DNA of 64,000 bases from positions 1-64,000 of the forward strand of contig PLZD01000040.1 in the NCBI GenBank assembly GCA_003151975.1, in the 5' to 3' direction. Position 1 is the first letter of the stretch; each line of letters begins with the position of its first letter. A program made the translations under genes and the position numbers. This DNA is from Elusimicrobiota bacterium. Its GTDB lineage: Bacteria; Elusimicrobiota; Elusimicrobia; UBA1565; UBA9628. This document shows positions 3,089-26,400 of this stretch, in pieces. The notes beneath the pieces are model-generated. The model saw only the letters and a list, made by a program, of their open reading frames with translations. It was not told the origin of the DNA and did no database searches.

Positions 3089-5734
3089 ATGGAACCGAAT
3101 AAAGACAAGCAGAAAGACGATAATAAGCCCATCATCCCCACTTTGAAGGATTCCGCCGGCAAACCCCAGCTCAAGATCAAAGGCATCGCCCAGGGCGGCA
3201 TGTCCTTGATCGAGCGGCTCAAACAGTTCAAGAAGAAGGACCTGGCCTTCATCATGGCGGGCCTTGGCGTCCTCTTCATGGCTCCTTTGGCCGAGCATTT
3301 CATGATGGCCCCCGAGGGCCAGAACGGCGATCTCTTCGGCCCCGGCATCAGCTCGCGCGGCAACGGCTCGGCCTTCGGCGGCGGAACCAGCTCTCCCTAT
3401 GAAACCGGCGGCAGCAGCATGGCCCCGGGCAGCGCGCTCGGCGGAAATGGAGACGTTATCACCCCCTTGAACGTGCGCGACCCCTCAGCGCTCGTGATGG
3501 GCCCCGGCGCGTCTCAGCAGCCTCCGGCGGGCTCTCCGTCGGCGCCGACGCCTCCGCCGGACAAGAAAGAATCTGGAGACTGGAAGGACGCGCTCGCCAA
3601 CGCGGGCGCCACGGCGGGCCGCGCGGCCACGAAGGCCGCGGGATTGCCCGTTCCTAAGCCGTCGCTGGGCAGCAGCGCCCTGCGCGGGATGGGAGCGCTG
3701 GGCGGCGGCGGCAGCGGCGGCGGCTTCAACGCTTTGGGCGCTCCGTCGGCGGCCAACGTTCCCAACCGGGGCGGCGGCGGGAGCAACATGCCCGGCGTCA
3801 GGGGCGGCAACTTCAAGGGAGTGGCGCGCGGTCCCGGCGACGGCGCGGGCGGCGGCCTAGACGCTTTGAAGAAAGCGGCCGGTCAGCAGGGCTCGGATTT
3901 CAACCGCAGCGGAGTATCCGGCGCGGCTTCGCTGGATCAGGCGGCCAGCCGCAACATGAACGCCGACCAGTCCAACGGCGGCGCCAACGACGGGAACATG
4001 GGCTCGGACAAGGGGCCCGGCGGCAACCAGGGCAAGGACAGCAAGAGCGTCGGCGAGTCGCTCGAGTTCCTGCGCCAGAAAGCCGAGCAGGACCACGCCA
4101 TCGACCTCGAGTGGAAGCTCAAGGAGAAGGCGGCGATGCGCATCCCGAACCTCGAGGACAAGATCTTGGAAGAGGCCGTCATGACGCCGTTCAAGGCCAT
4201 CACCGCCGGCATCGCCAAGCAGATCACGGACTTCGGCAAAGGCGGCGGCGGTTCTTTGGCGTGCACCGACACCAACGGAAACCAGTTCGTCTTGAGCAAG
4301 GGCGACATCGCAGACACCTGCCTGGCGTCTACCGGCGGCTCGGAGAAGACCACTCCATCCTCGTTCGGCTTCTGCAACAAGGAGGCGGGCGATCAGGTCT
4401 GCCAATGCACGGGCGGCATGGGCACGGCCATCAAGTGCGGCGGCACCAAAGACAATACTCCCCCGAAGAATACCAGCGATAAGGGCCAGGGCAACAATGG
4501 GGGGCAGCCGGTCCCTGCCAACGGCACCGGCGGTACGACTCCCACATCGAAGCCCGACGGAACCGTCGGATCCTCGAACCAGCTCTGCACGGACTACAAG
4601 AACACCATCGGATCCAACGCATCCAAGAAGCCGGCCGCCACGCCGGCCTCTGGCCAGCCCGCCGCTAGCTTTCAAGCCCAGCCCGGCGAATCCGACGCGG
4701 CCACGAACCAGGCCAAGGCCGTAGCCGAGGTCAACGCCGCAAACGCGGCCCTGACGGGTACCCCGGCCAACGTCGGGGGTTGCGCGGGCCAGAGTGCCAA
4801 AGCGAACAGCCAGACGCGGAGCGTGCAGGACCTCCTGACCGATGTGCGCGACCACATGTATGGCAAGACCGCCGGAGATTACGCAACCTCGACGCTCGGC
4901 TTGGTGGATACCGAGAGCAACGCCACCTTGGCGGTCCTGAAGCAGTTGAAAGACGGGAAAAAATCTGGGGCGCTCGTCACGGCCGATACGAACATCCAGG
5001 CGGGTGACGCCACCGCCGATACCATCACGGCGGAATACGGCAACGAGGACAAGGCCTTGACGGCGACGCAAGAGCCTTTGGGCAAACTCAACGCTGCCGT
5101 CACTAAGGCCGGCGGCGACAAAGGAGACACGGTGCTTACGACGGCCATTAACGACGCCGAAAAAAACCTCGACTTGGCGACTAAAGGCCTCAAGGACGCG
5201 ACGGAAGGGATCGCGGCCGCGCGTAAGGACGCCGGGACATTCATGATCCCTGATGCCGATACGAGCAAGTACTACACGCAAGCCAAGAAAACTATCGGCG
5301 ACGACGCCACCTCGGCCGATAAGATCGCGCAGCAGTACGACGGCGTCATTAAATTGGAAAAGGCGGCCGTCGACGCGCTGCGAGATCAACTCGCCCCGAA
5401 GACCCCTCCAAAAGAAGGGGATCCTGGGGTGCCTCAAAATGCCAGGAACACCCAGGCCTTGGTCAATAAAGATGGCAGCGGCGATACGGCCAAGCCGAAC
5501 GTCTCGGACCTCGTCAAGGCGGCTAAGACTTGGGCCACGCCCCCCGACCCCGACAATAAGAATAAGACGGCGTATCAGACTGCGTCCAAGATCGTTATGC
5601 CCAACGTGACGACGGCATCCGACAATCAGGACCAGGAAGCCAATGGCGATGGGGCAAAAAATCTCGGCATCGTAGGCGTCAAGACGAAGCTCCGGGACGC
5701 GAGCACGAGCCTCAACGGGGAGGCTCCTAAGTAA
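3089..5734 (+). CDS. Single-pass membrane protein with Gly-rich linker and helical C-terminus
   Basis: The 881-residue product begins with about 50 charged, probably cytoplasmic residues, then one transmembrane segment (about residues 52-72). A long Gly/Ser/Ala/Pro-rich linker (about 80-300) follows, then a short charged helical segment, a Cys-containing patch (around 390-455), a Thr/Pro/Gly linker and a long Ala/Lys/Asp/Thr-rich C-terminal half predicted helical. The start is supported by a GAGGAG ribosome binding site at correct spacing and a consensus promoter. An N-in signal-anchor topology would place most of the chain outside the inner membrane. No catalytic motif is visible. It resembles the gene at 1205 in plan but not obviously in sequence. 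Function unknown; a structural or scaffold role at the envelope is an inference. Confidence 0.8.
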   Translation: MEPNKDKQKDDNKPIIPTLKDSAGKPQLKIKGIAQGGMSLIERLKQFKKKDLAFIMAGLGVLFMAPLAEHFMMAPEGQNGDLFGPGISSRGNGSAFGGGTSSPYETGGSSMAPGSALGGNGDVITPLNVRDPSALVMGPGASQQPPAGSPSAPTPPPDKKESGDWKDALANAGATAGRAATKAAGLPVPKPSLGSSALRGMGALGGGGSGGGFNALGAPSAANVPNRGGGGSNMPGVRGGNFKGVARGPGDGAGGGLDALKKAAGQQGSDFNRSGVSGAASLDQAASRNMNADQSNGGANDGNMGSDKGPGGNQGKDSKSVGESLEFLRQKAEQDHAIDLEWKLKEKAAMRIPNLEDKILEEAVMTPFKAITAGIAKQITDFGKGGGGSLACTDTNGNQFVLSKGDIADTCLASTGGSEKTTPSSFGFCNKEAGDQVCQCTGGMGTAIKCGGTKDNTPPKNTSDKGQGNNGGQPVPANGTGGTTPTSKPDGTVGSSNQLCTDYKNTIGSNASKKPAATPASGQPAASFQAQPGESDAATNQAKAVAEVNAANAALTGTPANVGGCAGQSAKANSQTRSVQDLLTDVRDHMYGKTAGDYATSTLGLVDTESNATLAVLKQLKDGKKSGALVTADTNIQAGDATADTITAEYGNEDKALTATQEPLGKLNAAVTKAGGDKGDTVLTTAINDAEKNLDLATKGLKDATEGIAAARKDAGTFMIPDADTSKYYTQAKKTIGDDATSADKIAQQYDGVIKLEKAAVDALRDQLAPKTPPKEGDPGVPQNARNTQALVNKDGSGDTAKPNVSDLVKAAKTWATPPDPDNKNKTAYQTASKIVMPNVTTASDNQDQEANGDGAKNLGIVGVKTKLRDASTSLNGEAPK

Positions 5735-5821: not shown

Positions 5822-8800
5822 ATGAACCCCTCGAAGTCCCTCATGGCGCTTTTTATTGCCACGTGTGCCTTCGCCGCGCCAGCCGCGGCGGAAATGGTCA
5901 CGATTGTCGCTGGCATGGCCTCGGGCGACGGCAAATCCCACGAATACACCTTCTGCATCGATAAGGACAAGCTCTCCGCGCTCAAGCCCGACGGCGCCAC
6001 TACGGAGCCGCTTTTCCTCGCTCCGGATTGCGCCAAGCAAGCCAAGTCCACCTTGACCCGCCGCACCGACAAGAGCCTGCAGGTCAATCTGGTCCTCAAC
6101 GGCAAGACGACGCCGATCACCGCCAAGCCGCTCGGCAACGAGCCTCCGCAGGTACCCGTGCCTCCGCAGGAGAAGCCCAAGGACAAGCCCAAGGACAAAC
6201 CCAAAGATCAACCCACGAAACCGGTGACGACCGTTCCCAAGCCGGACTCGATCACGGACCAAGCTCTTTGGGACGCCGTCGTCGGAAACAGCGGCGTCCC
6301 CGCGCCGCAGCGAGAAGCGGCCGCCTCGGCGATGCAGAATTTCAAGGCGAATCATCCCGACGAATACCAGAAGCTCATGGCGGCCGGCGGCCCCGCGCTC
6401 AGCCTCGCGCTTTCCGGCGTGGCCGCGCGGCTCGCCAGCAGCGATACCGATGAGCATATTGACGCCTTCCTGATGACCACGGCCGGCAGCGTGACCGCAG
6501 GGCCCGTCGAGGGCAAGCCGGTCGAGAAAAAGAAGGGCGACGACGCGACCGGCGCAGACGCGATCGACACGCTCGTAAATCTTCTTCCCACGGACCAGGC
6601 CCTGCGCGACCGCGTCGCGGCGCGCTTCAACGAGTTCATCTTCGACGAGAAGAAGCGGGGCGACCAAGGCTACATCGATCAGACCCTCTGGGACAAGGAC
6701 GCGACCGACCACAACATCACGCGACTCAAGCCGCTGTCCGGCTGCTGGATCGAGGCCATGGTCGGCGCCAAGGACGGCACCGCACCGTGCAAGGCTTTAC
6801 GCGACGCCTTGGCCAAGTCCAAGAAACCCTTTCCGGCGAGCCCGCGCGCGGTGGCCGAGCTCTATTTCGTCATCGGCGACGACAACATGCCCGGCGGGCT
6901 GACGGACAAATTCCCGGAGTTCAAGACTCTGCAGAAGGGCGCCTGGCGCAAGGACAAGGACGGCGCCGATCTGCTCGATGCCATCACGGTCCGCATGGGG
7001 GTCTTCACGAAGGATAAAGAGGCCCAGAAGAAAAATCCCGGCGAGGATGCTCCCGGCCAGTACGCGGGCCAGACGGACAGCGGGGAGGGCGACACTCAAT
7101 TCGAGGATTGGTGGCTCGGCTTCTTCAACTACGCGGCCAAGAAGGCCGACGAGATTTTCCAAAGCGCTCCGATTTCCAAGCAGTCGATCAAAGACGCCGT
7201 CGGCAAGGCCGACGAGCCTCCGACGCCTCCGGGCGCGGGCGACAAGAAAGGCGGCGTGGTCGGCGGAGGCAAGAACGCCGGCGACATCCTCGCCAACGGC
7301 TTCGGCGTCGACGACATGTACGGCGCCCCATGCCCGTCAGGGGACGCTGGCTGCGACCGCAAAGGCGGCATCGTCGGCCGGATCCCGATCCCGGGCCAGC
7401 CGGACGCCCCGGGCCGCATGATCTCGATCAAGCTTTACTCGACGATCGAGAAAGACGCGACGACGGGGAAAGGCGTGATGGTCGATAAGATCGGAGTCTT
7501 CGACATCAGCAATCCCGGGAATCCCACGACGCCATCTAACATCTACGGCCGGCGCATCGGCACGGCGGCCTACGGCACGAGCGACATCCAGCTCGACGGC
7601 AGCCGCGCCGACAGCCTGCATTACAAGGTCACTTTGGGCAGCGACGGCAGCTTCAAGGTCACCGATGTCGACGGCAAGAACGGGCTCTCCACCTCGGTGT
7701 CCGAGTTGTACGATCTTCGCACAAAACAAGTCCAGTCGGGTCCCTTGGTCGAGATCAACAAGCAGAAGTTCTATCTCGGCTATCAGGGCGCGCCGAAAGG
7801 CCTGTACACTTATTATGCCTCCAATGACGATGGCACTCTCAAAGCGCCGACGCAGCTGAAGCCCTCCAACATCGCCTTCGCCGCCGCGCAGGGCGACGAC
7901 GGCTTTACCAAGACCCAGACCGACTACATGCCCTTGGGCGACATCGGCCCGGAAGGCAAGACGAATTTCTATTTCCTCAAGTGGAACCAGAAGATCGGCA
8001 ATTTCGAATACAAGACCTGCGATGAGGCCAAGGCGGGCGGCAACACGAAACCCTGCGCCGTGCCCGACGATTATCCGCCGCCGCCGCCGGCCGACCCGGT
8101 TAAGGATCCGGCGAAGGACCCCGCCAAGGACCCGACGAAGGATCCGACCAAGGACCCAACGAAGGACCCAACCAAGGACCCGACCAAGACCCCGACGAAG
8201 GATCCCGCGAAGGACAAAACCGACGGGACCGGCGGACCCAATAATTCCACGACGAGCGGCGATCTCACGAAGGATTGCGCCGCCAGCGTGGCGGCCGCCA
8301 CGACCGGCAGGAATTTTGAAAAAGGCGATTCCGACGGCTGGACCGTATTCTTCAACAACGAAGGCGAAGGAAACGCGCATGACGGCAAGCTCAACGTCTT
8401 CTTCCTCTGCTTCAGCCAGACGATGCGAACGATGGGGCAGGGCCTCTTGCTGAAGCAGGACAAGACTCCGGCCATCCGCGACGACGGCGGCGCGAACCTG
8501 ATCATCGAAACCGTCGATCCCGCCAGCCAAGTCTACGTCGACCCGTCCGCCATCAAGGCCGGCCACGTCGATCTCGGCACTTCGCAATTCATCTACGGCG
8601 ACGGTACGCCGCCGAGCAGCCTGGCCGCGCGCAGCATCTTCTATTTGCACAAGGCCGATATGATCAAGGCCGGCGACAACTCCCAAATCCTGAAACTGTT
8701 TTGGGTCAAATACTTCCTCGACATCCCCAAGGGCGAGGCCCGTAAGATGGATATCGAAGTCCCCGAGATCGATCCGGACAAGGCCGTCGCGTATGTGACG

Positions 8801-9097
8801 GCAGCACTGGACCAGGGCACGGCGAAGACCAGCCCGGCCAATAAGGCCGACAAGCAAAAGATCCTTGACGCGCTCAAGACCGACGTGACGGCGCGGCAGA
8901 AAGAACTCGACCCGCCGCTTCAGATACTCCTCGACCTCTATGACGGCACTGAGGTGAATCAAATCAAGATGTCGTCCGACCTCCTGACCATCAACGGCCA
9001 CGCCCTCCTCCGCTATTGTCAACTGCCGAGCAAGGACAATAAGAGCGTGCCACGCGGGGTGTATTTGAACTCCGACAAGAAGTTTTGCCAGCCCTGA
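5822..9097 (+). CDS. Exported protein with Lys-Asp-Pro repeats
   Basis: The 1091-residue product starts with a clear signal peptide (about 22 residues, hydrophobic core ending AAPAAA before EM). A first short charged Pro repeat (KDKP units, about residues 117-132) precedes a large acidic/basic mixed domain. A Gly-rich stretch with several Cys lies near residues 490-520, followed by what looks like a beta-rich domain (about 520-745). A long (K/T)DP repeat follows (about 760-800), then a C-terminal domain of about 290 residues. The Lys-Asp-Pro repeats look like inter-domain spacers. No enzymatic motif is recognised. It sits between the Gly-rich membrane proteins and the SecA-like giant, all on one strand, which suggests a shared envelope function (inference). 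Function unknown. Confidence 0.8.
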   Translation: MNPSKSLMALFIATCAFAAPAAAEMVTIVAGMASGDGKSHEYTFCIDKDKLSALKPDGATTEPLFLAPDCAKQAKSTLTRRTDKSLQVNLVLNGKTTPITAKPLGNEPPQVPVPPQEKPKDKPKDKPKDQPTKPVTTVPKPDSITDQALWDAVVGNSGVPAPQREAAASAMQNFKANHPDEYQKLMAAGGPALSLALSGVAARLASSDTDEHIDAFLMTTAGSVTAGPVEGKPVEKKKGDDATGADAIDTLVNLLPTDQALRDRVAARFNEFIFDEKKRGDQGYIDQTLWDKDATDHNITRLKPLSGCWIEAMVGAKDGTAPCKALRDALAKSKKPFPASPRAVAELYFVIGDDNMPGGLTDKFPEFKTLQKGAWRKDKDGADLLDAITVRMGVFTKDKEAQKKNPGEDAPGQYAGQTDSGEGDTQFEDWWLGFFNYAAKKADEIFQSAPISKQSIKDAVGKADEPPTPPGAGDKKGGVVGGGKNAGDILANGFGVDDMYGAPCPSGDAGCDRKGGIVGRIPIPGQPDAPGRMISIKLYSTIEKDATTGKGVMVDKIGVFDISNPGNPTTPSNIYGRRIGTAAYGTSDIQLDGSRADSLHYKVTLGSDGSFKVTDVDGKNGLSTSVSELYDLRTKQVQSGPLVEINKQKFYLGYQGAPKGLYTYYASNDDGTLKAPTQLKPSNIAFAAAQGDDGFTKTQTDYMPLGDIGPEGKTNFYFLKWNQKIGNFEYKTCDEAKAGGNTKPCAVPDDYPPPPPADPVKDPAKDPAKDPTKDPTKDPTKDPTKDPTKTPTKDPAKDKTDGTGGPNNSTTSGDLTKDCAASVAAATTGRNFEKGDSDGWTVFFNNEGEGNAHDGKLNVFFLCFSQTMRTMGQGLLLKQDKTPAIRDDGGANLIIETVDPASQVYVDPSAIKAGHVDLGTSQFIYGDGTPPSSLAARSIFYLHKADMIKAGDNSQILKLFWVKYFLDIPKGEARKMDIEVPEIDPDKAVAYVTAALDQGTAKTSPANKADKQKILDALKTDVTARQKELDPPLQILLDLYDGTEVNQIKMSSDLLTINGHALLRYCQLPSKDNKSVPRGVYLNSDKKFCQP
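8098..8220 (+). repeat. KDP tandem repeat (12-bp unit)
   Basis: About ten consecutive 12-bp units of the type aaggatccgacc encode KDPT/KDPA. One unit reads KTPT. The unit length equals that of the LPTN repeat in the first gene, although the peptide differs. Confidence 0.85.
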
Positions 9098-9107
9098 CAC
9101 CTCTTAG

Positions 9108-9141
9108 GATCTAGGCCTATTGGGTGTCGCGATCTAGGCCT
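9108..9141. repeat. 11-bp direct repeat, possible hairpin
   Basis: GATCTAGGCCT occurs at 9108-9118 and again at 9131-9141. Because the unit contains the palindrome AGGCCT, the two copies can also pair as a 7-bp stem (AGGCCTA with TAGGCCT). It lies just after the stop at 9097 and may help end transcription, though no T-run follows directly. Confidence 0.4.
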
Positions 9142-9148
9142 TTAGACC

Positions 9149-9177
9149 TTGGTTTTTGGGACTTTTGGGGCTAAACT
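9149..9177 (+). promoter_or_regulatory. Promoter TTGGTT-17-TAAACT, leaderless
   Basis: TTGGTT at 9149-9154 and TAAACT at 9172-9177 are 17 bp apart. The ATG at 9187 begins 9 nt after the -10 box, so the transcript should start at or within a few bases of the start codon. Confidence 0.65.
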
Positions 9178-9186
9178 TACCTTAAT

Positions 9187-12100
9187 ATGACGCGCCGACT
9201 CATCAGCGTCCTCCTGTCGTTTTCCATCTTCCTGACCGCGCCCGGTCTCGGGAGCTGGGCCGCCGCCGCCGACGACCTCGGCGTCACCACCGACGCCAAG
9301 ACTGGGCAACTGCGCATCTCGACGGGCAAGGACGCCAAAATTCCGGTGCAGGCGGACAACAGCCAAATCGAAAAGATCATTCAGAAGCTCAACGATCCGA
9401 ATCTGGCTCAGCGCACCTCTCCTGACCAGATTCAGCAGATGCGCACCTTCCTTCAGAAATATAAGGACAATCTCGAGCAGAATGGCACGGACGAGAGCCG
9501 CGCCGCGCTGAGCAAGCTCAACAAGGATTTGGGCGACGGCGACAAGGATCTCGAGCTGAGTCTCGGCGAGGCGTTCGACGACCTCTCGCCGTTCATGCGC
9601 AAGATCAACGACGAGAGCAACGCCGTCAGCGTCCTCGAGCGCACGAACACGAGCCAGACCGTCCGGGTCTCCAACTGGAAATTGGGCGGCACCGTCTTCA
9701 CGCAGAAGTCCACCCAGCTCAATCCGCTCGTGACCAAGAAGGTCATCTACCGCCCGGATCTCGACGACCTCAATCACCAGATCGTCGACGCCATCGTCAT
9801 GGAGACCAAGAAGGGCTCCGCCACCGAGCAGCGCGTCATCTACAATCGCCGCGTCGAGCTGCTGTTGATGAACCTCAAGAAGCTCTACTACGACCAGCCC
9901 TCGCTCGCGCGCAAGATCACCGAGAACTGCAACGTCCCCGATCCGACGCACCACGAAGGGATCGCCATCAACATTCGGCCCGACGCCCGCGACGAGCAGA
10001 TGGGCAAGGTCGCCTGCGAGCAGATGGTCAAGATCTTCGACGCCAAGCGCCAGCCGCTCGACGACAAGAACCGCTCGGGCTTTCCGACCAAGATCCTCGA
10101 TTATCTCAAGAAGCTCGCCGCGGCCCGCGCGTCCGACACCCTCGACCAGCTCGACTGGCAGGAGCTGCAGAGCGTCCAGCGCCTGTCCATGCAGTTCTAC
10201 AACGACAACCAGCTCGACACCATGCAGAAGATGGTGCTCATCGAGCTCAAGACTTATTTCGCGCAGGTGACCAACGCGCAGGTCAAGGAGAACAAGGAGA
10301 CCCAGTCGCTCGACGCGACGATGAAGGACCTGGGCGAGCTGCAGAAGGTCTTCGACGAGTTCAAGAACGGCAATTTCCAGGGCTACTCGATGCTGATGAC
10401 GACGTTCTTCGCCAAGTCCGACATCGAGGATCCCAAGTACGTCAGCAAGGACATCATGCTGCTGGCTTCCGAGGCCTTCGCCGACGTCGCCAACGCGGTG
10501 ATGGCCCAGAAGCGCATGCTGGCGGGCGGCCTGACCGGCGACGAGATCGACGCGACCATCGAGGAGAGCCAGCAGTGGATGCGGCTGGCGCAGGTCCATC
10601 TCCAGGAATTCGACATGCACACGCTGAGCATCCAGCTCGAGCGCCTGGAGAACGGCCACCTGCGCGACCACCTGGGCCTGCGCGTCAACGACATCGAGTT
10701 CATCAACGACCAGGGCCAGAAGGAGACGCTGACCTCCGTCGAGAACAAGGCGCAGGCGGCGCGGCTCGTCACCATCGCGCAGAAACAATACCTGCCGAAG
10801 CTCGAACAGATCAACGGCGAGATCAAGCTCAACCTCATCAAGCAATCGCTGGCCGGCTTCTATCTGACCTATCTGAACGTCAGCCGGGCCATGCTGTACG
10901 ACGACACCATGCAGGAGCGCGTGTCCTCTCTCGCGGGCAAGATGACGGAGATCAAGGACCTCTATCTCTCGATGGTCTTCGATCACGTGAAGAACCAGCC
11001 GAAGTTCATGGGCAAGTCCGAGACCCAAAAGCTTCAGGGCAATCTGTTCGAGATGTTCATGAAGGACCTCGCGACCGACAACCCCGACCAGGCCAAGAAC
11101 GCCGCCGACATGGAGGTTTTGAGCCGCAAGCTCAAGGACCTCTCGCAGATTCAGAGCGCCGATCGCGTCCGCGACGACATTCAGCCGCTCTACGCCGAGT
11201 TCGCCCGCCTCTCGCAGTTGATCATGAAAGAGGCGACCGCAGGCCAGGCCAATGCGACCAGCGCGATGCCCGTGATGGACGACGTCAAGAAGGAGGCGCA
11301 GAACCTCTCGATCAAGCAGACCAAGCTCTTCTCGGCCGTCGGCGATTTCTCGGCGCAGGCGCGCATCTTCGACATGCTCAACGAGCTGGACCTCTACGTC
11401 TGCAAGTACGCCAGCTCCGACTCCTGCTTCTCGAGCGGGGATACTAAGGTCTCGAAAGCCATCAGCATGAAGTGGTGGGACCAGTTCATGAGCTGGATCA
11501 CCGTCGGCCTGCGCGACAAGGCCATCGACGGCACCATGAAGATCAACCCGTTGACGGAGAAGGCCTTCAAGGCGCTCGGCGAGAACAAGGAAGAGCGCTA
11601 CCGGATCATGAAGCTCCTGGCCGAGGGCAAGTTCCAGGCGGCCATCGACCGCATCGCCGCGCTCGATCCCAACCACAAGCCGGTCGACATCGCGATCAAA
11701 GCCCTCGGCGAGAAGAATGCGGCCGGCGCGCTGGCGCAGCTCGACTCCCTTCAGTGCAACGCCGCCCAGCGCGACGCCATCCGCAAGCTCATCAACGAGG
11801 GGAAATTCGACGAGGCGATCAAGGCCTTGCGCAAGCTCGACTCCGCCCTGCGCGCCTGGGACGAGTACCAGGACGACAAGGCCATCGAAGACCCCTTCGA
11901 GATGATGGATTTCGACAGCTCGCTGACCAAGACCGCCGACAACAAGTCGCAGATCATGGCTCAGGGCGTCATCCAGAACATGTTCGGCCAGCTTCAGCCC
12001 TACATTATGGGCTACACGCTGACGGCCGGCGTCTACGACACCTTGATCGTTTCGGCCCTGACCTTGGGCCTGGGTGCTGTCTCGCGCTACGCGATCGCGG

Positions 12101-15100
12101 GCGCCAAGGGCGTGATTGCCGTCGGCGAGGCGCTTCAGGTCGGCAAGTCCGCCGAGGCCATCGCGCAAATCGAGAAGATGGGCACCCTCCTCCGCGTGCT
12201 GACCAACATCGGAAAATTCGTCGTCAACATCCCGGGCGCCTTCATCGCCTACGCGGGCAAGTGGCTCGAGAGCTCGATGATCTCGATTCGCAACGTGCTG
12301 GGCATCGCCAACATCGGCAAGGACGTGGGTTTCGGCGAAAAGACCATGATCATCTTGCGGCAGGGTGCTGTCAACGCGCTCAAGATGAACATCAAGAACG
12401 ACATCATCATGGCCGGCGCATCGGGCGGCATCCAGGCGATCAGCTACGCGGTCAATCCCGAGAGCTCGCAGTTCGGCAGCGCCTGGCAGGCGGCGAAGGA
12501 AGGCTTGGTCAACGGCTTCGGCTTCGGCGCGAAATCCGGCCTCATCGTTCTCATGAGCCCGGTGCCCGTCTCGGCTTTCGGAGAGGGGACGGCGGGCAAC
12601 GTGGTGCGCGGCATCGCCAACTCCCCGGGTCCCTTGAGCTCGCTGAGCCAGGGCATCGCCAAGGTCGTGGCCACCGACAGCGAGTTCGCGGCGGTGGGCC
12701 CCCTGGGCGTGATCAAGGATATGTCGCTGGCCGCCTCGCCGACGGCCTACGCCGCGATCAAGATGGCGATCTGGGGCGGAGCGATGGTCGACGGGGCGCT
12801 CAAGTACATGGTCGCGTCCGCCGTGGCCCACAATGTCGGCGCCGTCTACGAGTACTACGATTACAAGCTCACGCACCAGGCCGAGGCGGCCAAGGGCACC
12901 GACAGCGAGGGCGCGACCGTCGAGATGCAGGCCATGTCGCAGGGCGAGGCCTTCGGCATGACCATGGCCGAGGTCAGCTGGCTTCTGCTGCCCGTGCACC
13001 AGCAGTCCAACGATAAGTCCGTTAAAGAATCGATCGCCCGCGAGGACGGACTCAACGCCGCGCTCAACCAGGGCCTGGCGCCCGATATCGCCCAGGGCCG
13101 CAACGGCCAGGACATCGTTTTCGACAAGTCTTGGGCGACCGAGACTTGGGGCGAGCGTGCGACCGAGACAACCAAGAAGGCCTGGGCCAAGGTCACTGGC
13201 GTCGATTACGAGCCGCCCAAAGGCCGCCTGACCGTCGACGCCGACATGCGCGAGCGCGCCAACAGGGTCGAGATGAAGGACATGACCGACGCCCAAAAAT
13301 TCGACATCGCCACCACGCCGCGCGAGAACATCGGCAAGTACCGCCTCAAGGCCGAGCTTGGGACCGATTTCGAACAGGCAAACTATTCCAACGAGCCCAT
13401 CAAACCCGAGGCCTCCGCCGGACCCGCGAAATTCAGCAAGCCGGGCCAAGGCGGCGAGGTCGACGTGCGCGATCTCAACTTCCGCATCACCGACGAGTCG
13501 ATCACTACGGCCAAGGACATGCTGACTGAGAAGATCAAGGGCTCCAAGGGCGCGACCACCCGCCTCGAGATCCTCCGCGCCGGCGATTCCTTCACCTTCA
13601 ACAAGGGCCAGACCGACGCAAATGGTGAGAGCCTCGAGGTCAGCCTCACGGGCAAGCGCCTGGATTCGCTGCGCGAGCTCACGGCCAACATCGATCTCAA
13701 GGAGCAAGGCCGCGCCGAGAAGGGCTCGACCTGGCAGAAGATCAAGGATCTCGTCACGGGCCGCCCGATGGAGAACGGTTCCGACGCGGTCGTGCGCAAC
13801 CTCAAGAACGGCGTGGATGTCGATCTCTCCAAGGAGACCAAGGCCGAGTCCGCCGAGATGGACGCGGCGGCCAAGGAAGTCAAGGACGCGGCCCGCCAGC
13901 TCAAGGAGAAGGCCGATAAAATGGTTTCGTCGCCCGAGTCGGTCGAGGGCGCTCAGGCCGACATCAAGGACGCCGCGCAGAAGGCGCTTGACGCGGCCGG
14001 GCGGCTCGAGAAGGCCGCCGACCGCGTCAACGACCCCAAGATCAAGATGGACGCGCAGGACGTGGCCAAGAGCGTGCGTCGCACGGTCGAGTTGGCGGAA
14101 AGCGACAAGTTCACGGCCGACGGCGTCGGCGCGAACGAAAAGGAGATCAAGAAGTCGGCGGGCAAGCTCGCCTCGATCGCCGACGCGCTTTCTTCAGCCG
14201 GCGACGTGTTGGGCAAGTCGGGCTCGCGGCTCGAGGCCTCGGAGCTCGCGACCAAGGCCATCGACTCGGTCAACGCGCAGATGCAGCAGCGCATCGACAC
14301 TAAACTTGCCGAGTCGCAGAAGCTGCGCGCCTCGGGCGACATCGGCGGCGCCGACGCGCTCGAGCGCGAGGCCTTGGCGCTCAAGGCCACCCGCAAGAGC
14401 GTGGAGGCCGACGCCTTTCTCGACTTCGTCAACGAGAAGATGGGCAAGGATTTCACGTCGTACCGCGGCGGCCGACTCAGCGAGGCGCAGGTCGACAGGT
14501 CCATCGACCTCTTCGTCGAGACCTGGGAGAAGGGCGTGTTCGGCGAGCGCTGGGGCAAGGCCGAGGCCGTCCCCGACGGCAATGGCGGCATGGAGCGCAA
14601 GTGGACCATCCCTGCGGAAAAACAGTTCAAGGGGAGGGACGGCGGCGCGATCCCCGAGTTCCGCGGCCCGCAGAAAGAGATGCTCAAGGAAATCTTGAAG
14701 TCGATGGCCGAGGGCAACCAGATGACCATGGGCTTGCTCAAGACCAGCGGAGGCAAGACCTTGCTGAGCTTCGTGCTGCTGAGCTTCATGGACACGATGG
14801 CACGCCAGAAGGGCAAGCAGGGTGCGGTCTACGTCACCGTCAACGGCGACCTCGTCGCCCAGGCCTACGAGGACTACCGCGCTTTCTTCAAAGGCCGCGA
14901 CCCGCGCTTCGAGATCCGCACCGTCTCGGATTTCATGGCCGACCAGGCCATGGCCGACGCCACCGGCGGGATGTCTCCGTTCAAGAACCACGACGTCGTC
15001 TTCGACGAGTATGACTTGCTCGGCACGATCACGGCCCTGTCTTTGGGCAGCGACAACGGCCGGCTCAGCCACCCCGAGCTCGATCCCGTGCAGCGCTCTC

Positions 15101-17424
15101 TGCACCAGGGCGTCTCGGAGCTCAAGGAGTTCTTCGACAAACACCAGGCCGAGATCGGCAGAGACATCGACGGCGAGAAGCTCGTGAAAATGATCAAAGG
15201 CGACTCGCCTTTCGCCAAGGAGTTCCGCGAGCTGACCAGCAAGTACGTCGGCATGACCCGCACGGCCATCGATGGCGTGCGCGGCTCGGAGTTCAAGCAG
15301 GCGATCATGGACCTCAAGGTCCCGGTCTACGACGCCAAGTCCGAGTCCATCGTCTTCCAGCCCTCGGGACTCACCCGCGAGCAGTTCACCAACAAGTACG
15401 GCATGACGCCCGAGCAGATCGTCAAGGACATGCGCCAGGAGCACGACCACGCTTTCGGCGGCGGCTGGCGCAGCTTGTGGGACGTGGGCGTCATCCAGCG
15501 CCAGCAAGGCGGCCTGGACGGCTACGTGACCAAGACCTTCCTCGGCGGCATCCAGGCGCTCTCCAAGCCGGATCTGGCCAAGTTCTACGACGCCGAGCTC
15601 GATCCCACGGGCAAGAAGCTCGTCCAGTACCACAACGACGTCCCGCTCGACAACCTCGACACGCTCTACCGCTCGTTCCTCGAGCTCAAGCACGGCATTC
15701 CGCTGACGCTCGACTTCGACAATCTCACCGTCGTCGACTTCGCGGGCTTGAACCAGGCCGCCAAGGAATCCGGCGCGACCTTGGTCGCGGTCTCGGGAAC
15801 TTTGCCCGAGAAGCTCGAGGTCTTCATGAAGGACCTGGGCTGGAACATCATGGGCGAGAAGGCGCCGGGCAAGGCGCTCGACTACAAGACGCTCGACCCG
15901 ATGCGCAAGGGCGTGCGCGATGCCGTCACTTTGATCAACGAGCAGGAGAAGGGCAAGGCCATGGCGCGCATCGATCAAATGGGGCTTCCTAAAGAAGTCC
16001 GCGACGATATTCATGGCATGCTCGACGCCGGCGACTATGAAGCCGCCGCCGCCAAGCTGACCGCGGCCGCGCCGAGCAACTCGGAGGAGCACGAGGTCGC
16101 GACCAGCATCCGCCAGCTCGTCGACCAGCCGGCTAAGGTGCGCGAGGCCATCGGCCTCATGAAGGCCGGCAAGGCCAAAGAAGCCGATGTCATCCTGCGC
16201 GACATCGGCCTCGACCGCGAGGTTCGCGACCAGATCGGCGGCGATCTCAAGAATGGCAACCTCGCCGACGCCCTCGACGCGCTCTACGCCAAGGCGGGCC
16301 GGGGCGGCAAGAACCTGGGCTTCTTCTTCGCCGAGAGCAAGTCGAAATACGCCAGCTACGAGGCCGAACTCGACGCGCTCAATCCGAAGTTCACGACCGA
16401 CGCCAAGGCCGTCGAGCGCTACGGCGAGCTCGACAAGCAGTCGAAGAGCATCGCCGCCGACATGAAGCGCCTGCGCTCCGACCCCAACGCGACGGCGCAG
16501 ATGGACGCCCTGCGGGATCAATACAAGAAAGTCGAAGGGGAATTGGACCCGATGCGCCTGATCCCGAAGACGCGGCGCGTGGTCGCCGTGACGCCCGATT
16601 CCAACTTCCTCGTCCAGGAATGGCTGATGCCCGAGGCCGTCGAGGCCAAGAACCTCGGCGCGCTCGAGAAGGGCGAGGCCGACGTCGTCATCTTGATCGG
16701 CCAGTCCGGCTTCCGCGGCCTCGATCTGCCTTTCAAGAAGGCTTATCAGGACGGCCACATCGTGATGTTCATCCCCGATCCCGGCTCGCTGTCCACCGTC
16801 AACCGCCGCCAGCTCACGGGCCGCATCGACACCGGCCGCATGCCCAAGGGCGCGACCTCCGAGATCGTCGGACTCGTGCGCGAGCAGACCTTGCTCGAGA
16901 CCGAGGCTTTCAAAAACATTTCAGGCAAGACCTTCGGGGAGCTGGCCCACAACGGCATCGCCGCGCGCGAGGGCGCGCTGAAGACCCTGCTGCGCGACAA
17001 GGTGCCCGCGGGTCAGGTCGTCGACGACGCGGTCATCGCGCAGTATCTCAAGACCGAGCCGCCGGTCGAGGACAAGGAAGCGACCAAGACCTACTCCGAT
17101 GTCCGGTATCTTTATCAGGACGTGCAGAACCTGCGCGAGCTTTCTCGGATCATCAAGCCCGAGGACGTGCAGGCCGCGCTCAAGGACCCTGCAGTCGCCG
17201 CCAAGCTCGCGGCCCGGCCCGACGTGTTCGACTTGCTGATGACCCAGGACGCGATCCAGACGATCATGTCGGACCTGCAGGCCAAGGAAGAGATGAAGTC
17301 GCTCGAGGCCTCGGGCATCTTCAAGGGCGTCCAGCCCGGCGTCCTGCAGCAACTCATGATGAAGCTGCGCGCCATGCGCGGCGTCACGCCCACGCCGATG
17401 CCCGCTCCCGCCGGCGCGAACTAG
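9187..17424 (+). CDS. Giant exported protein with SecA-like motor domain
   Basis: The 2745-residue product starts with a signal peptide (hydrophobic core about 6-20, AAAA near 26-29). Residues 30 to about 900 are mainly charged helix/coiled coil. Hydrophobic segments lie around 940-1080 and 1180-1260. A charged helical linker follows, then from about 1800 a motor related to the SecA DEAD ATPase. Walker A is GLLKTSGGKT (1849-1858); a segment like SecA's VTVN motif follows, then a DEYD Walker B-like motif near 1940-1943. In the second helicase lobe, GQSGFRGLDLP (about 2505) matches the SecA motif V region, and QLTGR near 2542 corresponds to SecA's QLRGR arginine-finger motif. No SecA zinc tail is present. 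SecA is a cytoplasmic preprotein motor; a signal peptide on such a domain is very odd. The exact role is unknown. Confidence 0.8.
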   Translation: MTRRLISVLLSFSIFLTAPGLGSWAAAADDLGVTTDAKTGQLRISTGKDAKIPVQADNSQIEKIIQKLNDPNLAQRTSPDQIQQMRTFLQKYKDNLEQNGTDESRAALSKLNKDLGDGDKDLELSLGEAFDDLSPFMRKINDESNAVSVLERTNTSQTVRVSNWKLGGTVFTQKSTQLNPLVTKKVIYRPDLDDLNHQIVDAIVMETKKGSATEQRVIYNRRVELLLMNLKKLYYDQPSLARKITENCNVPDPTHHEGIAINIRPDARDEQMGKVACEQMVKIFDAKRQPLDDKNRSGFPTKILDYLKKLAAARASDTLDQLDWQELQSVQRLSMQFYNDNQLDTMQKMVLIELKTYFAQVTNAQVKENKETQSLDATMKDLGELQKVFDEFKNGNFQGYSMLMTTFFAKSDIEDPKYVSKDIMLLASEAFADVANAVMAQKRMLAGGLTGDEIDATIEESQQWMRLAQVHLQEFDMHTLSIQLERLENGHLRDHLGLRVNDIEFINDQGQKETLTSVENKAQAARLVTIAQKQYLPKLEQINGEIKLNLIKQSLAGFYLTYLNVSRAMLYDDTMQERVSSLAGKMTEIKDLYLSMVFDHVKNQPKFMGKSETQKLQGNLFEMFMKDLATDNPDQAKNAADMEVLSRKLKDLSQIQSADRVRDDIQPLYAEFARLSQLIMKEATAGQANATSAMPVMDDVKKEAQNLSIKQTKLFSAVGDFSAQARIFDMLNELDLYVCKYASSDSCFSSGDTKVSKAISMKWWDQFMSWITVGLRDKAIDGTMKINPLTEKAFKALGENKEERYRIMKLLAEGKFQAAIDRIAALDPNHKPVDIAIKALGEKNAAGALAQLDSLQCNAAQRDAIRKLINEGKFDEAIKALRKLDSALRAWDEYQDDKAIEDPFEMMDFDSSLTKTADNKSQIMAQGVIQNMFGQLQPYIMGYTLTAGVYDTLIVSALTLGLGAVSRYAIAGAKGVIAVGEALQVGKSAEAIAQIEKMGTLLRVLTNIGKFVVNIPGAFIAYAGKWLESSMISIRNVLGIANIGKDVGFGEKTMIILRQGAVNALKMNIKNDIIMAGASGGIQAISYAVNPESSQFGSAWQAAKEGLVNGFGFGAKSGLIVLMSPVPVSAFGEGTAGNVVRGIANSPGPLSSLSQGIAKVVATDSEFAAVGPLGVIKDMSLAASPTAYAAIKMAIWGGAMVDGALKYMVASAVAHNVGAVYEYYDYKLTHQAEAAKGTDSEGATVEMQAMSQGEAFGMTMAEVSWLLLPVHQQSNDKSVKESIAREDGLNAALNQGLAPDIAQGRNGQDIVFDKSWATETWGERATETTKKAWAKVTGVDYEPPKGRLTVDADMRERANRVEMKDMTDAQKFDIATTPRENIGKYRLKAELGTDFEQANYSNEPIKPEASAGPAKFSKPGQGGEVDVRDLNFRITDESITTAKDMLTEKIKGSKGATTRLEILRAGDSFTFNKGQTDANGESLEVSLTGKRLDSLRELTANIDLKEQGRAEKGSTWQKIKDLVTGRPMENGSDAVVRNLKNGVDVDLSKETKAESAEMDAAAKEVKDAARQLKEKADKMVSSPESVEGAQADIKDAAQKALDAAGRLEKAADRVNDPKIKMDAQDVAKSVRRTVELAESDKFTADGVGANEKEIKKSAGKLASIADALSSAGDVLGKSGSRLEASELATKAIDSVNAQMQQRIDTKLAESQKLRASGDIGGADALEREALALKATRKSVEADAFLDFVNEKMGKDFTSYRGGRLSEAQVDRSIDLFVETWEKGVFGERWGKAEAVPDGNGGMERKWTIPAEKQFKGRDGGAIPEFRGPQKEMLKEILKSMAEGNQMTMGLLKTSGGKTLLSFVLLSFMDTMARQKGKQGAVYVTVNGDLVAQAYEDYRAFFKGRDPRFEIRTVSDFMADQAMADATGGMSPFKNHDVVFDEYDLLGTITALSLGSDNGRLSHPELDPVQRSLHQGVSELKEFFDKHQAEIGRDIDGEKLVKMIKGDSPFAKEFRELTSKYVGMTRTAIDGVRGSEFKQAIMDLKVPVYDAKSESIVFQPSGLTREQFTNKYGMTPEQIVKDMRQEHDHAFGGGWRSLWDVGVIQRQQGGLDGYVTKTFLGGIQALSKPDLAKFYDAELDPTGKKLVQYHNDVPLDNLDTLYRSFLELKHGIPLTLDFDNLTVVDFAGLNQAAKESGATLVAVSGTLPEKLEVFMKDLGWNIMGEKAPGKALDYKTLDPMRKGVRDAVTLINEQEKGKAMARIDQMGLPKEVRDDIHGMLDAGDYEAAAAKLTAAAPSNSEEHEVATSIRQLVDQPAKVREAIGLMKAGKAKEADVILRDIGLDREVRDQIGGDLKNGNLADALDALYAKAGRGGKNLGFFFAESKSKYASYEAELDALNPKFTTDAKAVERYGELDKQSKSIAADMKRLRSDPNATAQMDALRDQYKKVEGELDPMRLIPKTRRVVAVTPDSNFLVQEWLMPEAVEAKNLGALEKGEADVVILIGQSGFRGLDLPFKKAYQDGHIVMFIPDPGSLSTVNRRQLTGRIDTGRMPKGATSEIVGLVREQTLLETEAFKNISGKTFGELAHNGIAAREGALKTLLRDKVPAGQVVDDAVIAQYLKTEPPVEDKEATKTYSDVRYLYQDVQNLRELSRIIKPEDVQAALKDPAVAAKLAARPDVFDLLMTQDAIQTIMSDLQAKEEMKSLEASGIFKGVQPGVLQQLMMKLRAMRGVTPTPMPAPAGAN

Positions 17425-20377: not shown

Positions 20378-20488
20378 GATTTTTCCTCAGGTCCAAAGAC
20401 CCAATTGGGAATGGGCCTTTTTATCGATTTTTGTGGCCCATTGGCCTCTAAAACCGGCCGGCTATCCCTAGTATCCTTAATATTGACG

Positions 20489-23400
20489 ATGAAGCTAAAG
20501 GTCTTGCCCAAGGCGCTTTCGGTCCTGGTTTCGGCGGCCCTCATCCTCATGGCCCCGGGGCCCGCCGCCTACGAAGCTCTGGCGGGCGAGATCAAGACGA
20601 CCTCCGGCGAGATTCCCAAAGCTCCCACCCCCACGGCGCAAGTCGGCGTTCCGGCCATCGGCAACATCGACGTTCCGGTCACCCCTCAGACCGTCGCGAT
20701 GCCCTCAGTTCTCGAGACCAATGCCGTTCCTCAGGAGCTCGCGGCCAACGCGGTTCCTGTCGCCGCGGCCGAAGGGGCCCCGGCGTTGGTCATGCCCGCC
20801 CCGTTGAGCCAGGCGCAGGTCGAGCCCGCGGCTCCCGGCGCCGCGAAAGACGCGTCGCAGGGTCTGAAAGCTGGAACTGAATCCATCGGTGCGCTGCAGA
20901 ATGGAGACGCGGCCAAGGTTCTGGCCGATCCCAAAGCCGAGAAATCGGGAGTCCTGAACTGGATCTTCGACCGCTTCAAGGGCGGCAAGAAGGAAGATGA
21001 AGCCGTCGTCATGGGCAGCGAGGCGGCCGTGGCAGCGCAATCAAATCTGGCTCCAGCCACGCCGCGCGAAAATCCGGCCCGCCCCTCCGTTCCAGCTCCC
21101 CTCAAGACCAAGCCCGCGGCGCCAGCACCCAAGCCTGCCGCCCGCAACCGTCCCTATCGCCTGATCGGCGTCGCGGCTGGCACGGCGCTGGCTTTCGCGG
21201 CGTTCGCCGCTGCTCCCATGGTCGCGCTGGCGCTGCCGATCGTGGGCTACGGCCTGGGCGGCGCGATGAAGCTGGTCGACCCGAAGTCTCACATCGAGGA
21301 GGCCGGCACTGGGACCGGCGTCGTGCTCGGAACCTTGGCCGCCGGCGCCTTGGTGTTCTTTGGCGTGATGCCCCTGACCTACGCGCTGGCCATTCCCTTG
21401 GCCGCCGCGATCATCGGCTACGCGGTCGGCGCGATGACCTCGAAGAACTCCAAGGCCGATGAGGCCAAGATTGCGCGCCGCGAGCCCACGCTCTCCTTGC
21501 CGGACGCCGTCAAGAAGATGGATGCGGCGCACGGAATCGTCGCCGAGAAGCAAGCGGTGCTGCCCGAGGCGCCCAAGCAAACCGAGCCCGCCGCTACGCC
21601 CAAGCCCGAGGAAAAGAAAGCCGAGGCCATCGCGCCGGCCGCCAAGATCGAAGAGAAGAAGGCCGAAGTTCCCGCGGCCGCAAAGACCGAAGAAGAAAAC
21701 GAGACACTCGCGCCGGGCAAGACGCCGCGCAGCTTCAAGAAGCTCCCGGCGGACGCGCGCGAGAAGACGCTTGATGATCTCTTCGCGGCGAAGGTCAAAG
21801 CTCAGGAGCGCGCCCGCAAGATCGCCAAGAGCGCCCAGCTCGTGAGCGTGGCGATCAACTTGGACGATGACCGCGCTCACTGGATCTTCACCTTCCGCTC
21901 GAAGTCGCGCAAGATCACCATTTACGAGAAGAGCTCCACGAGCGTCCGGCTCAAGGCTTCGGAGAAGACGGGACCCGTGCTCTGGAACACGCGCTTCCAG
22001 AACGCCGGCACGCTCGAGCAGGCCTACACCGCTCTCAAGAAGGAGAAGCACTGGTTCAAGCCCGTCCGCGTCGAGCTGCGGCCGACTTGGAAGGGCGATC
22101 CCTACTACCTGTTCATCGACAAGGACGGCCGCGAGGCGAAGGTCCCCTCGGCCGCGCAGAAGAAGACGCCCGAGCCCGCGCCGGCGCCCCCCGCCGACCG
22201 CGGCCCGCCGCAAACCGAGCCCGCGCCGGCCGGAAATCAAACTCCGACCGTTCCCCCGGCGGTCCCGACGAAGTCGGGGCCGGCCACCAATCCCGCTCCT
22301 CCAGAGACAAAAACGCCGGACACCAAGCCGCCTGAGACAAAACCGCCCGCTCAAGAGCCGCCGACGGCCGCGAAGTACAACCCCATAAGCGAGGGGTTTT
22401 TCGGTTTTAGATGGGTCAAGGGAATCGAGCGCACCAAGCCCGACGGCAGCAAGCTCGGACGCCTGAAAGCGACCGCCTCGGCCTCCGAGATCATCGACCA
22501 GATCGCTTGGCAGTTCGACATCCCGCGCGCGGATGTCGTCGCGCTCGGCAAGAAGCTCGGCTTCACCGAAGTCTCGCCGGCCGCGCAGTGGTTCGGCGTC
22601 TACGACAAGCTCCAGCAGACCAACAAAGCCAAGCGCGACCACTACGACAACGAGAAGCACGAGGGCTCGGTCTTCGGCGAGCTCTTCGCCCACGGCCTCT
22701 CGTACCTGCCGATGCCCAAGTCGTGGAAAGAAAAACTGCGGAGCACGCAGGGCAGCTTCCGCAAGCTGTCCAATCGCTCGTATCCGCCGGGCCTCGGCGG
22801 CGCGCTGCTGCGCCTGCTCGAGGTCCACAAGCACGTCGTCGGCGCGTTCTTCCGCTTCCCCTACCACCTCTTCGACATGTTCGCGTACGGCTACTTCCGC
22901 CGCAACATCAGCTTCGAGTTCCTGCACTCCGCCGAGGACTACCTCAACATCGAGAAGCCGGGCTCCGCCATCAAGCACCTCGAGGCCGCGATGCACGAGC
23001 AGGCGCGCAAAGGCTCGGGCTTCTTCGGCACGATCAACGGCTCGCCGGCCGGCCGGACCCTCAACCGCTGGCTGATCACGCCGATCGTCTCGCCGCTGTG
23101 GACCTTCATCAAGCGCCGCGGCACGATGGCGCTTTTTTCCGCGGCCACGATGGGCGTGCTCGGCGCGATCGCGCCGGGACTGGCGATCATGTCGTTCTCG
23201 CTGACGGCCCTGCCGCTGGTCGGGCCCGCGCTCGTCGGCCTCTCGCACGGTCTGCCGGTCGCGGTCGCTTCATTCCCCTTGGTCGGCGCCTTCCTGGCGC
23301 CCGTCGTGGCCGCCGCGACGATGGCCCTGCTCAAGGACATGATCGTGGGCCGCCTGCTCAACACCATGCTGCTCTCGACGGCGATGACGGTCACCAGCGT

Positions 23401-26400
23401 GTTCCCGAACGCGCTCACGCAGGAGCGCATCAAGATGCAGGAGGCTGACCCGAAGGTCCGGCCGGATCGCGTGGTCGCCGCGGCGCGCGTGCTCAAGTCC
23501 GGCAAATTCTGGTGGACGCTGGCCAAGCAGAACTGGAACTCGTTTGTCGGCATGGTGACCGTCGGCGCCGAGATCGAGGGCATCATGACCTACATGCACG
23601 GCATCGACGCCACGGTCTCCGACACGCTGGGTTCCAAGATTCCCTCGCTCAAGGGCTTCGACGGCTTCCAGAAGATCGGCGCCTTGGTCGAGAAACCGGC
23701 CGAGTGGGTCGACGAGGGCGGCGTCAAGCACCACAACATGATTCCGTTTGGCGGCGCGATCACTTGGGGCAACACCTTGCTCTACAAGGCCGAGACCGCC
23801 GTCGGCTACAACCTCTCCGACCACATCATGTGGGCCTTGAACCCGAGCCTCCGGGACGCCAAAGTCACCGCCCAGCAGGTCATTCAGATGACGACGCAGC
23901 GCCCGGATCAGGCCAAGGCGGCCAAGGACAAGGATAAGGACGGCAAGGTCAAGCCCTCGGTCTACGATTTCGACAAGGACCTCTTTAAGAAGTCCCCGGA
24001 AGAAATCAAGGCGCGCATCGCGGAGCTCATCAAGCAGTCCGGCGGCCTCGAGGGGGAGATCAAGGCGACCAAGGAATGGCAGGCCCAGCTCGCCGCCCGG
24101 CTTAAGGCCGCCGAGCAGCATGTGAAGGATATCGAGGCCAAGCGCGAGAGCATCCCGCCGCTGACCGACGCCGAGCGCGCGGAGTACGCGCGCCTGATGA
24201 AGGAGCTCTCGGGCAAGCGCGACGAGGGCTACATCGACTCCAAGCTCGCCGAGCGCCACGACATCCTGCATCCCAACGGCGACGATCTCGCGAAGCTGCA
24301 ACAGCTCAAGGCGCTCAAGGAGTACTACGATTCCGCCATCGGCGCGCCGCCCAACGGAGGCCGCACCGGCTACACCGACCAGCTCATGGTTCAGCAGGCG
24401 AGCCTGGGCGCGCTCAAGGAACATCTGACGGCGCTCCAGAGCAACCGCCCGACGGACCGCAATGAGGGCAAGGTCGCGCCGGTCGACGCCAAGGTCAAGG
24501 ACGACCTCGAGCGCACCGTCACCTTGATCGAAAAGCTCCGCACCGAGGCGCAGGGCGAGATGGCCAACCGCGACGCGGTCCGCCAGCTGCTGGCCGTCGA
24601 GAACAAGGAGCGCAACCGCGCCTTGGACGACCGCCGCAGCGGCAAGGAGATGTTCGAACTGCACAAGAATATGTCGCGCCTGGCCACCGTCATGGACATG
24701 GCCTTGGCGCTCAACGAGATCAACGCCGCCGAGAAGGCCATCACGCAGATGCAGCAGCTGCTCAACCAACGCCTGGCCGCGATCCAGGCTTCCCAGCAGC
24801 AGAACCAGCAGAATCTCAACAACGCCAACAATCAGGCCGGGCAGATCGCGCAGTGGACGCAGCAGGCGACGGCGACGGTCAACTCGGACAAGGCCAGCCA
24901 GCAGACGATGGTGACCAACGAGGCGGAGGCCCGCGGCGGGGTGCAGCGCATCGGCGCCTTCCAAAGCGGCGTTTCGGGCCTGATCGCGCAGATCAACGCC
25001 TCCGACAAGGGGCAGAGCGCGACGGCCGCCGCCGAGTACCAGCGCCGCATCAACCTTCTGCCCGCCGTCGCGCAATTCCGCAACGACGGCGTCATGCGGC
25101 CCGGCATCAATCCCGGAGCGGCCGGCGGGTTCTCCATGAAGCAGTTCACGGACCTGCTCGCGCAGGTCCAGGGCAACATCCAGACCGCCAATAACGGCGT
25201 GGCCCAACTGCCGACGGTGCCCGTTGAGTTCGCGGGCGCGCTGATCGTGCTGATCCCGGGCCCCGCGGTCAACGTCACCAACCCGACGCAGGCGCAGACC
25301 CTGCAGATTCTGGCCGACCGCGACACCTATTGGGCCGGGCAGCAGACCACCATCCAGAACGCCCTGACGACCGTCAACAAGATGCTTGACCCGAGCAACA
25401 CGGCCACGACCACCGATGAGTTCGGCAACGTCAACCCGCAGTCCCTGCCGGTCTGGCGCGGCCAGCAGGCGGCTCTGGAGACGCAGAACCAAAGTCAGGC
25501 GCAGACCTTGCTCTCGCAGGTCGACGCGCTGGCCTCCGACGTCAACGCCAAGCTCGGCGCCACTCTGCCTCCGCTCTCCGGCCTGCCGCTGGCCTCGCTG
25601 CAGACGGCCCTGCAGAGCTACGCGACCAAGGTCCAGGCCGTGACGATCCCCAATACGCAGACCCCCGACGTCAACGCCGCGAGCCTGGAGATCCTCGAGA
25701 TCGCCCAGCTCCTGCCGCAGGCGGCGCACAACGTGATCATCTGGTCGCAGGCCGACGGCACGATCAAGCAGATCGACAACGCGACGGCCAACACCCTGCC
25801 CACGACGCAGGCCAAGCTCAACGAAATGGTGCAGATGTTCAATAACATCGTCGCCGACGACGCCGCGGACGTCGCGTTCGTCAAGGGGACCTCCGGCGAG
25901 AGCAGCCAAGCCTTGATCAACCGCAAGACCGACCTGCTCAAGAACAAGATCCTGGTCCCGCTCAACGACGCGCAGACGCTGCTCCAGAGCGTCCTGATCC
26001 CGTACCAGCAAAGCTCGATCGACTCGGCGCAGTCCAATCCCAACCAGCCGCTCGACGAGCTCTTCACCGCCCAGCTCAACTTGATCAACCAGACGCAGAG
26101 CCTCTACAACACGACCGTGCCTTGGGCCGTCACGACGCACGGCGGCGCCAACGGCAACGCGGCCGACTCTCACACCCACATCGCGGCGTGGCGGACCACG
26201 CTGCAGAACAATCTCAACGGCTACACCGATTCGAGCGGCAACAAGATCGAGGGCCTGCTGCAGTATCAGACCGAGGTGAACAACCGCAAGGACCCGAACT
26301 ACGCCGGCACCGAGAATCTTTACGGCGAAACCCAGCCCTACAGCCTGCCCAAGAAGATCGTCCAATACACCGCCGAGGAGGTCACGCGCGCCAGCGCGAT

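Follow-up and report, generated by a model that had tools for sequence, protein, structure and literature searches.

A signal-peptide-bearing giant protein of Elusimicrobiota with a strictly conserved ATPase domain related to SecA

Secondary SecA_DEAD proteins that lack the SecA scaffold/wing domain have HlyD and M50 proteins, and in some cases OEP proteins, encoded in their loci, for which a SecA-powered, type-I-like exporter has been proposed (Kamneva et al. 2015, PMC4452313). The locus of the protein described here, GIANT1, shares with them an ATPase that appears SecA-derived and lacks the scaffold/wing, together with a conserved neighbour containing an OEP (TolC-type) domain. Unlike those loci, it contains no recognised HlyD or M50 gene and both partners are giants; unlike the secondary SecA_DEAD proteins, GIANT1 carries a signal peptide on the motor protein itself and has a far more divergent motor. 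Given the published TolC- and HlyD-linked proteins, the statement in the initial annotation that a cytoplasmic as well as an exported motor would be a new use of SecA was too strong. Most giant genes of Omnitrophota and Elusimicrobia are said, in a 2023 preprint by West-Roberts, to carry divergent SecA DEAD domains, and their products are reportedly rich in transmembrane regions. These giants resemble GIANT1 in length, in their origin from the same or a related phylum and in their divergent SecA DEAD helicase domains, whereas GIANT1 has one marginal transmembrane segment at most. Giant genes are common in Elusimicrobia (PMC12057145, citing a 2023 preprint) and are also known in Omnitrophota, a related phylum whose giant proteins have been linked to predation (PMC10066038).

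The stretch of DNA analysed, referred to as the window, comprises 64,000 nucleotides of an Elusimicrobiota contig. GIANT1 (9187..17424, + strand) is an uninterrupted open reading frame of 2745 aa with an ATG start, and co-linear homologues of 2300-3400 aa were found in relatives of the source genome; it is a real gene and a member of a family. With a profile of the motor as query, strong matches were obtained in about 50 of 341 Elusimicrobiota genomes, and a scan of viral contigs returned no relative. The chain consists of a signal peptide, a helical N-terminal part, a Gly/Ala-rich region, a linker and the SecA-like ATPase. Its N-terminus, MTRRLISVLLSFSIFLTAPGLGSWAAA-ADD, carries a Sec signal peptide of the classical type (residues 1-27, 9187..9267, +), with RR in the n-region, a hydrophobic core and an AAA-A cleavage motif; the initial annotation had recognised it correctly, and all family members whose N-terminus is intact begin with a comparable one. 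The helical N-terminal part (residues 28-930, 9268..11976, +) has no recognisable Pfam or PDB relative, and contains all five cysteines of GIANT1 (residues 248, 277, 739, 747 and 857). It is followed by a Gly/Ala-rich amphipathic region (residues 931-1280, 11977..13026, +), which includes a single marginal hydrophobic stretch (932-968) and ranks second in conservation along the chain, after the motor. Short helical repeats of the pattern R..I..L...G.F..A......LDP look alike by eye at residues ~800-890 and 2240-2370; the copies lie at ~11584-11856 in the N-terminal part and at 15904-16296 in a motor insert present in this lineage only. The spacer before the gene (9098-9186) contains two copies of a GATCTAGGCCT-like word.

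The motor was described initially as having Walker A, a Walker B-like motif, a VTVN segment and QLTGR in SecA order, and all of these were located. The NBD1-like lobe (residues ~1820-1949, 14644..15033, +), recognised by Pfam ResIII, has invariant catalytic residues and contains Walker A (14734-14766, +; TSGGKT at residues 1853-1858), the VTVN segment (14827-14853, +; VTVN at residues 1883-1886) and the DExD box DEYD (residues 1940-1943, 15004-15015, +). A domain-sized insert at the position of the SecA PPXD separates motifs II and III (residues 1950-2140, 15034..15606, +); it measures 190 aa in GIANT1 and 500-1200 aa in distant homologues, and the insert in GIANT1 gave no PF01043 (PPXD) match. 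Then come a SecA-type joint and motif III (15607..15801, +), which align in register with SecA by hhalign and comprise the joint ELKHG..LTLDF...VVDFAGLN (15679-15753, +) and SGT (residues 2203-2205, 15793-15801, +). After a lineage-specific helical insert that most homologues lack (residues 2240-2370, 15904..16296, +), the NBD2-like lobe (residues 2375-2570, 16309..16896, +), which matches SecA by hhalign, contains motif V with RGLD (residues 2501-2516, 16687-16734, +) and motif VI, RRQLTGRIDTGR (16804-16839, +; QLTGRIDTGR at residues 2542-2551). The C-terminal tail (residues 2571-2745, 16897..17421, +) has no Pfam match. In the aligned family, the GK of Walker A and the DExD box are each conserved in 32/32 sequences, and the S of SGT, the RG of motif V and the Q and both arginines of motif VI in 46/46. 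Because the motifs are invariant or nearly so across 32-46 homologues whose remaining identity is about 25-40%, their presence is not due to chance, and this is the pattern expected of an ATPase under strict selection. DEAD-box profiles match the two lobes separately in hhalign (lobe 1, P=5e-8; lobe 2, P=4.5e-6), and the motor therefore belongs to superfamily 2.

GIANT1 has a conserved giant neighbour, GIANT2 (20405..36514, +; 5369 aa, likely start ATG 20489), which has a signal peptide, a C-terminal transmembrane segment (residues 5315-5345) and two cysteines. Its relatives are proteins of 4-5 kaa with 37-44% identity. Residues ~2987-3207 of GIANT2 (29363..30025, +) form a TolC-like (OEP) domain, detected by hhalign against the OEP profile (91%, P=9.6e-7) and, in one homologue, directly by Pfam (E=2.4e-6). 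Of 55 genomes with at least one of the two genes, 45 have both, on the same contig in 20, and their co-occurrence holds within the order alone (Fisher P=4e-4). GIANT2 was considered as a second motor and rejected, having no Walker A. Two upstream genes are conserved in position among the relatives: 3089..5734 (+), encoding 881 aa with one N-terminal transmembrane segment followed by a Gly/Pro-rich chain, and, directly upstream of GIANT1, 5822..9097 (+), encoding 1091 aa with a signal peptide and a PT-rich composition. Among the genes of the window near GIANT1 and GIANT2 that were scanned with Pfam, none matched HlyD or Peptidase_M50. Between the two giants (19366-20262) lies a 298-aa fusion of an IS200-like Y1 transposase domain with a DnaA-C-type HTH. 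The source genome has a second GIANT2 relative (G000:C53:251084-252649), inside a 3857-aa ORF.

We favour the reading, at a probability of about 0.5, that GIANT1 is a Sec-exported giant with an intact, SecA-descended motor lying outside the cytoplasm and forming an envelope machine with GIANT2. In the signal peptides of the family, positive charges precede the hydrophobic core, an orientation by which the chain that follows is predicted to be sent out. Hydrophobic segments had been reported initially ahead of the motor; these are weak, and residues ~932-968 alone approach the hydrophobicity of a transmembrane segment (Kyte-Doolittle 1.6; mean of the family 1.46). A peak at this position is common to many family members, but L049-L053 are too polar here to form a membrane helix and other members have none, so that no transmembrane segment is conserved between signal peptide and motor.

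The cysteine content of the motor points the same way and is the strongest clue to its location. The motor regions of 28 members contain 6 cysteines in 27,577 residues, with none at all in 25 of the 28; at the rate of canonical SecA about 190 would be expected (P about 1e-74, ignoring sequence relatedness). SecA, UvrB, DEAD and other helicases of Elusimicrobiota have 0.5-0.85% cysteine, and in a background of 0.8 Mb from the same genomes, Cys-free chains made up 0/24 predicted cytosolic and 3/21 predicted exported proteins of at least 500 aa. A logistic classifier on whole amino-acid composition could not tell motor and cytosolic proteins apart, which counts against an exported motor; composition was dropped as a location test, being confounded by genome GC and unable to place SF2 motors, and from it cysteine content alone was used. 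With cysteine nearly absent from the motor and no transmembrane segment conserved ahead of it, a position outside the cytoplasm is favoured for the motor; the signal peptide and the cysteine depletion argue against a cytoplasmic motor partnered with SecYEG.

The initial annotation had offered, besides an exported motor, a return of the chain through the membrane, and this is the main rival, less likely than export. The first ~900 residues would be periplasmic, 932-968 would cross the inner membrane once, and the motor, in the cytoplasm, would power type-I-like secretion by the two giants together, GIANT2 providing the TolC-like exit. Such an arrangement places the motor where ATP is present, makes use of the OEP-like domain of GIANT2 and of the hydrophobic peak seen in many members, and has a precedent in the published loci of SecA_DEAD with HlyD, M50 and sometimes OEP, whose ATPase was proposed to drive an exporter (PMC4452313). 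The single crossing it needs is the same marginal stretch that could return the motor to the cytoplasm and so weighs against export; however, the stretch is too polar in L049-L053 and missing in others, a membrane hairpin there would keep the motor outside, and a near-total absence of cysteine is unexpected for a cytoplasmic motor.

The favoured reading, an exported motor, meets a difficulty in energy supply. Neither the periplasm nor the cell's surroundings are known to contain an ATP pool, and hence no Sec-exported protein is known to run on ATP beyond the cytoplasm; nor, to our knowledge, do any SecA motors work there. We found no description in the literature of a conserved signal peptide combined with near-absence of cysteine and a strictly conserved ATPase. 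An exported, Cys-free family with such a SecA-type ATPase allows a sharp choice to be tested: either ATP drives work past the inner membrane or within a target cell, or re-entry brings the motor back inside.

The descent of the motor from SecA is a separate matter, and all of the evidence for it comes from profile-profile comparison. In hhalign, the motor matched a SecA profile that included divergent secondary SecAs with 96% probability (P=1.8e-9, score 87), and the divergent SecA-like ATPases alone with P=5.6e-10; reversed and block-shuffled control SecA profiles scored 17-42, against 87-93 for the real ones. The divergent ATPases added to the profile were L044, L045, L046, L063 and L267 of Elusimicrobiota. 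Scores improved with the 47-member family profile and became significant once the divergent SecAs were included; low-diversity SecA profiles scored weakly, yet their alignment was collinear over 214-435 columns. The SecA alignment starts at the PPXD/NBD1 joint and stays in register up to and including motif VI; at the joint it sets ...GLHQAVEAKE...TLATITFQNFF...GMTGTA of SecA against ...LELKHG...LTVVDFAGLN...AVSGTL of GIANT1.

GIANT1 thus resembles SecA (PF07517, PF01043, PF21090, PF07516) in motif order, in its DExD box, in an NBD2 with a QxxGR motif, in the insert at the PPXD position and in the joint sequence before motif III, with a profile-profile P of about 1e-9. It differs in having no curated-model match, no scaffold/wing and almost no cysteine, in its 2.7-kaa chain with a signal peptide and in the likely non-cytoplasmic position of its motor. 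No Pfam SecA model matched any of 14 family members, and NCBIfam gave no SecA match for GIANT1; the Pfam and NCBIfam matches are to ResIII or restriction-helicase/DEAD models, with ResIII above cut-off in 12/14 members. Beyond the NBD2 block the chain runs on for about 175 residues, in which Pfam found no SecA_SW. No significant hit came from single-sequence phmmer searches of PDB or from hmmsearch comparisons of the motor with SecA or with helicases. The SecA-like character assigned initially therefore holds at the level of profiles (P=1.8e-9) and not at that of Pfam, NCBIfam or the scaffold/wing. Because the match is in register and the insert lies between motifs II and III, and because the scaffold/wing is lacking, the motor is best called SecA-derived, yet not a SecA.

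Structure prediction, suggested at the outset as a check, gave little to go on: AlphaFold models of the motor, made from three sequences each, had pLDDT 52-53 and pTM 0.28-0.33, too poor for the lobes to be discerned, and their low confidence weighs against the exported-motor reading. Foldseek matches were non-significant, those at the top for the second model including SF2 helicases at E 0.01 or worse.

Another possibility is that an exported giant acquired an ordinary ATPase of the SF2 helicase fold (ResIII/RadD/DEAD-like), in which case the motor would have no special SecA ancestry. The ResIII matches above cut-off, in the absence of a SecA model match, favour this, as do the DEAD-box matches of both lobes (P=5e-8 and 4.5e-6), and the hits of PDB profile searches with the motor, all non-significant, included helicases such as DDX10 and RadD. 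We nevertheless think it improbable, since the best profile match is to SecA (score 87-93 against 72 and 57 for the DEAD-box lobes), this match takes in the SecA-specific joint before motif III, and a domain-sized insert between motifs II and III is the SecA plan.

From the exported-motor reading we infer where the motor would lie, what it would act on and how it would obtain ATP. The C-terminal third of GIANT1 would be an SF2 motor descended from SecA, its catalytic residues intact, built in order from NBD1, an insert where SecA has its PPXD, the joint and NBD2. Within one Elusimicrobiota order, GIANT1 would belong to a conserved machine of the cell envelope whose other parts are the TolC-related GIANT2 and the two smaller envelope proteins. 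Led by its signal peptide, the chain would cross the inner membrane; since the family conserves no transmembrane segment after that peptide, the motor would come to lie outside the producer's cytoplasm. There, the SecA-type ATPase may act on polypeptides, moving or remodelling them in association with the channel-like GIANT2. The ATP would be supplied from elsewhere, our leading guess being an ATP-containing target cell, perhaps reached by way of the membrane-active-looking Gly/Ala-rich region. A giant surface or effector protein, its motor delivered into neighbouring cells and acting there on nucleic acid or protein, would fit the signal peptide, a Gly/Ala-rich amphipathic region ahead of a C-terminal catalytic domain, ATPase motifs kept intact in a predicted exported protein, and the link of giant proteins to predation in a related phylum (PMC10066038), but is a doubtful choice, with no delivery apparatus or toxin domain recognised and a locus that is conserved like core machinery and not variable like effectors. 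The envelope-machine reading gives the giant genes of Elusimicrobia, to which no function had been assigned, a concrete predicted biochemical activity and a conserved TolC-like partner.

Judged by their predicted N-termini, SecA-type motors in signal-peptide-bearing proteins recur within Elusimicrobiota (start codons of these MAG genes were picked by eye). Additional genuine SecAs are encoded in genomes of the order that holds GIANT1. Of these, L064:1184-4531 (-) and L067:2236-5562 (+) encode full-length SecA paralogues (SecA_DEAD, PPXD, P-loop, SW) with a signal peptide. L046:388-4644 (-) combines a signal peptide, an M50-like membrane protease part, a SecA motor and TPR repeats in a single chain, as though the genes of the published secondary SecA_DEAD/M50 locus had been fused. 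Like GIANT1, these three have a SecA motor behind a signal peptide and an almost Cys-free mature chain, with 0-1 cysteines (none in L046), against 5-10 in SecAs without a signal peptide (L063 and canonical SecAs of the same order). This contrast among true SecAs is a separate parallel that speaks for an exported GIANT1 motor. Unlike GIANT1, they strongly match all or most SecA domains (SecA_DEAD E 1e-117 to 1e-59), and no homology to GIANT1 was seen beyond the motor. Signal peptides and SecA_DEAD motors are also combined in two larger proteins, of 5253 aa (L044:2167-17925; SecA_DEAD E 2e-60, with a DnaJ domain) and 4433 aa (L267). It is conceivable, at slightly less than even odds, that SecA-type motors were moved across the inner membrane more than once in this phylum by the addition of a signal peptide and still hydrolyse ATP on the far side or within another cell, GIANT1-GIANT2 being one case.

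Weak SecA PPXD matches were also seen in giant ORFs of 2400-11262 aa from other Elusimicrobiota genomes (G326:C149, which is L266, and G306, G307, G257, G309 and G313); against the SecA profile these ORFs gave no match except for L265 and, weakly, L266, and L260-L264 were rejected as relatives, with no significant match to SecA or to the GIANT1 family. Elsewhere in the window, 39427-39759 encodes a CopG-type antitoxin (Pfam E=9e-13), and 1205-2980 a protein of 591 aa, anchored in the membrane at its N-terminus, that has 20 cysteines (3.4%), in contrast to the Cys-free giants.
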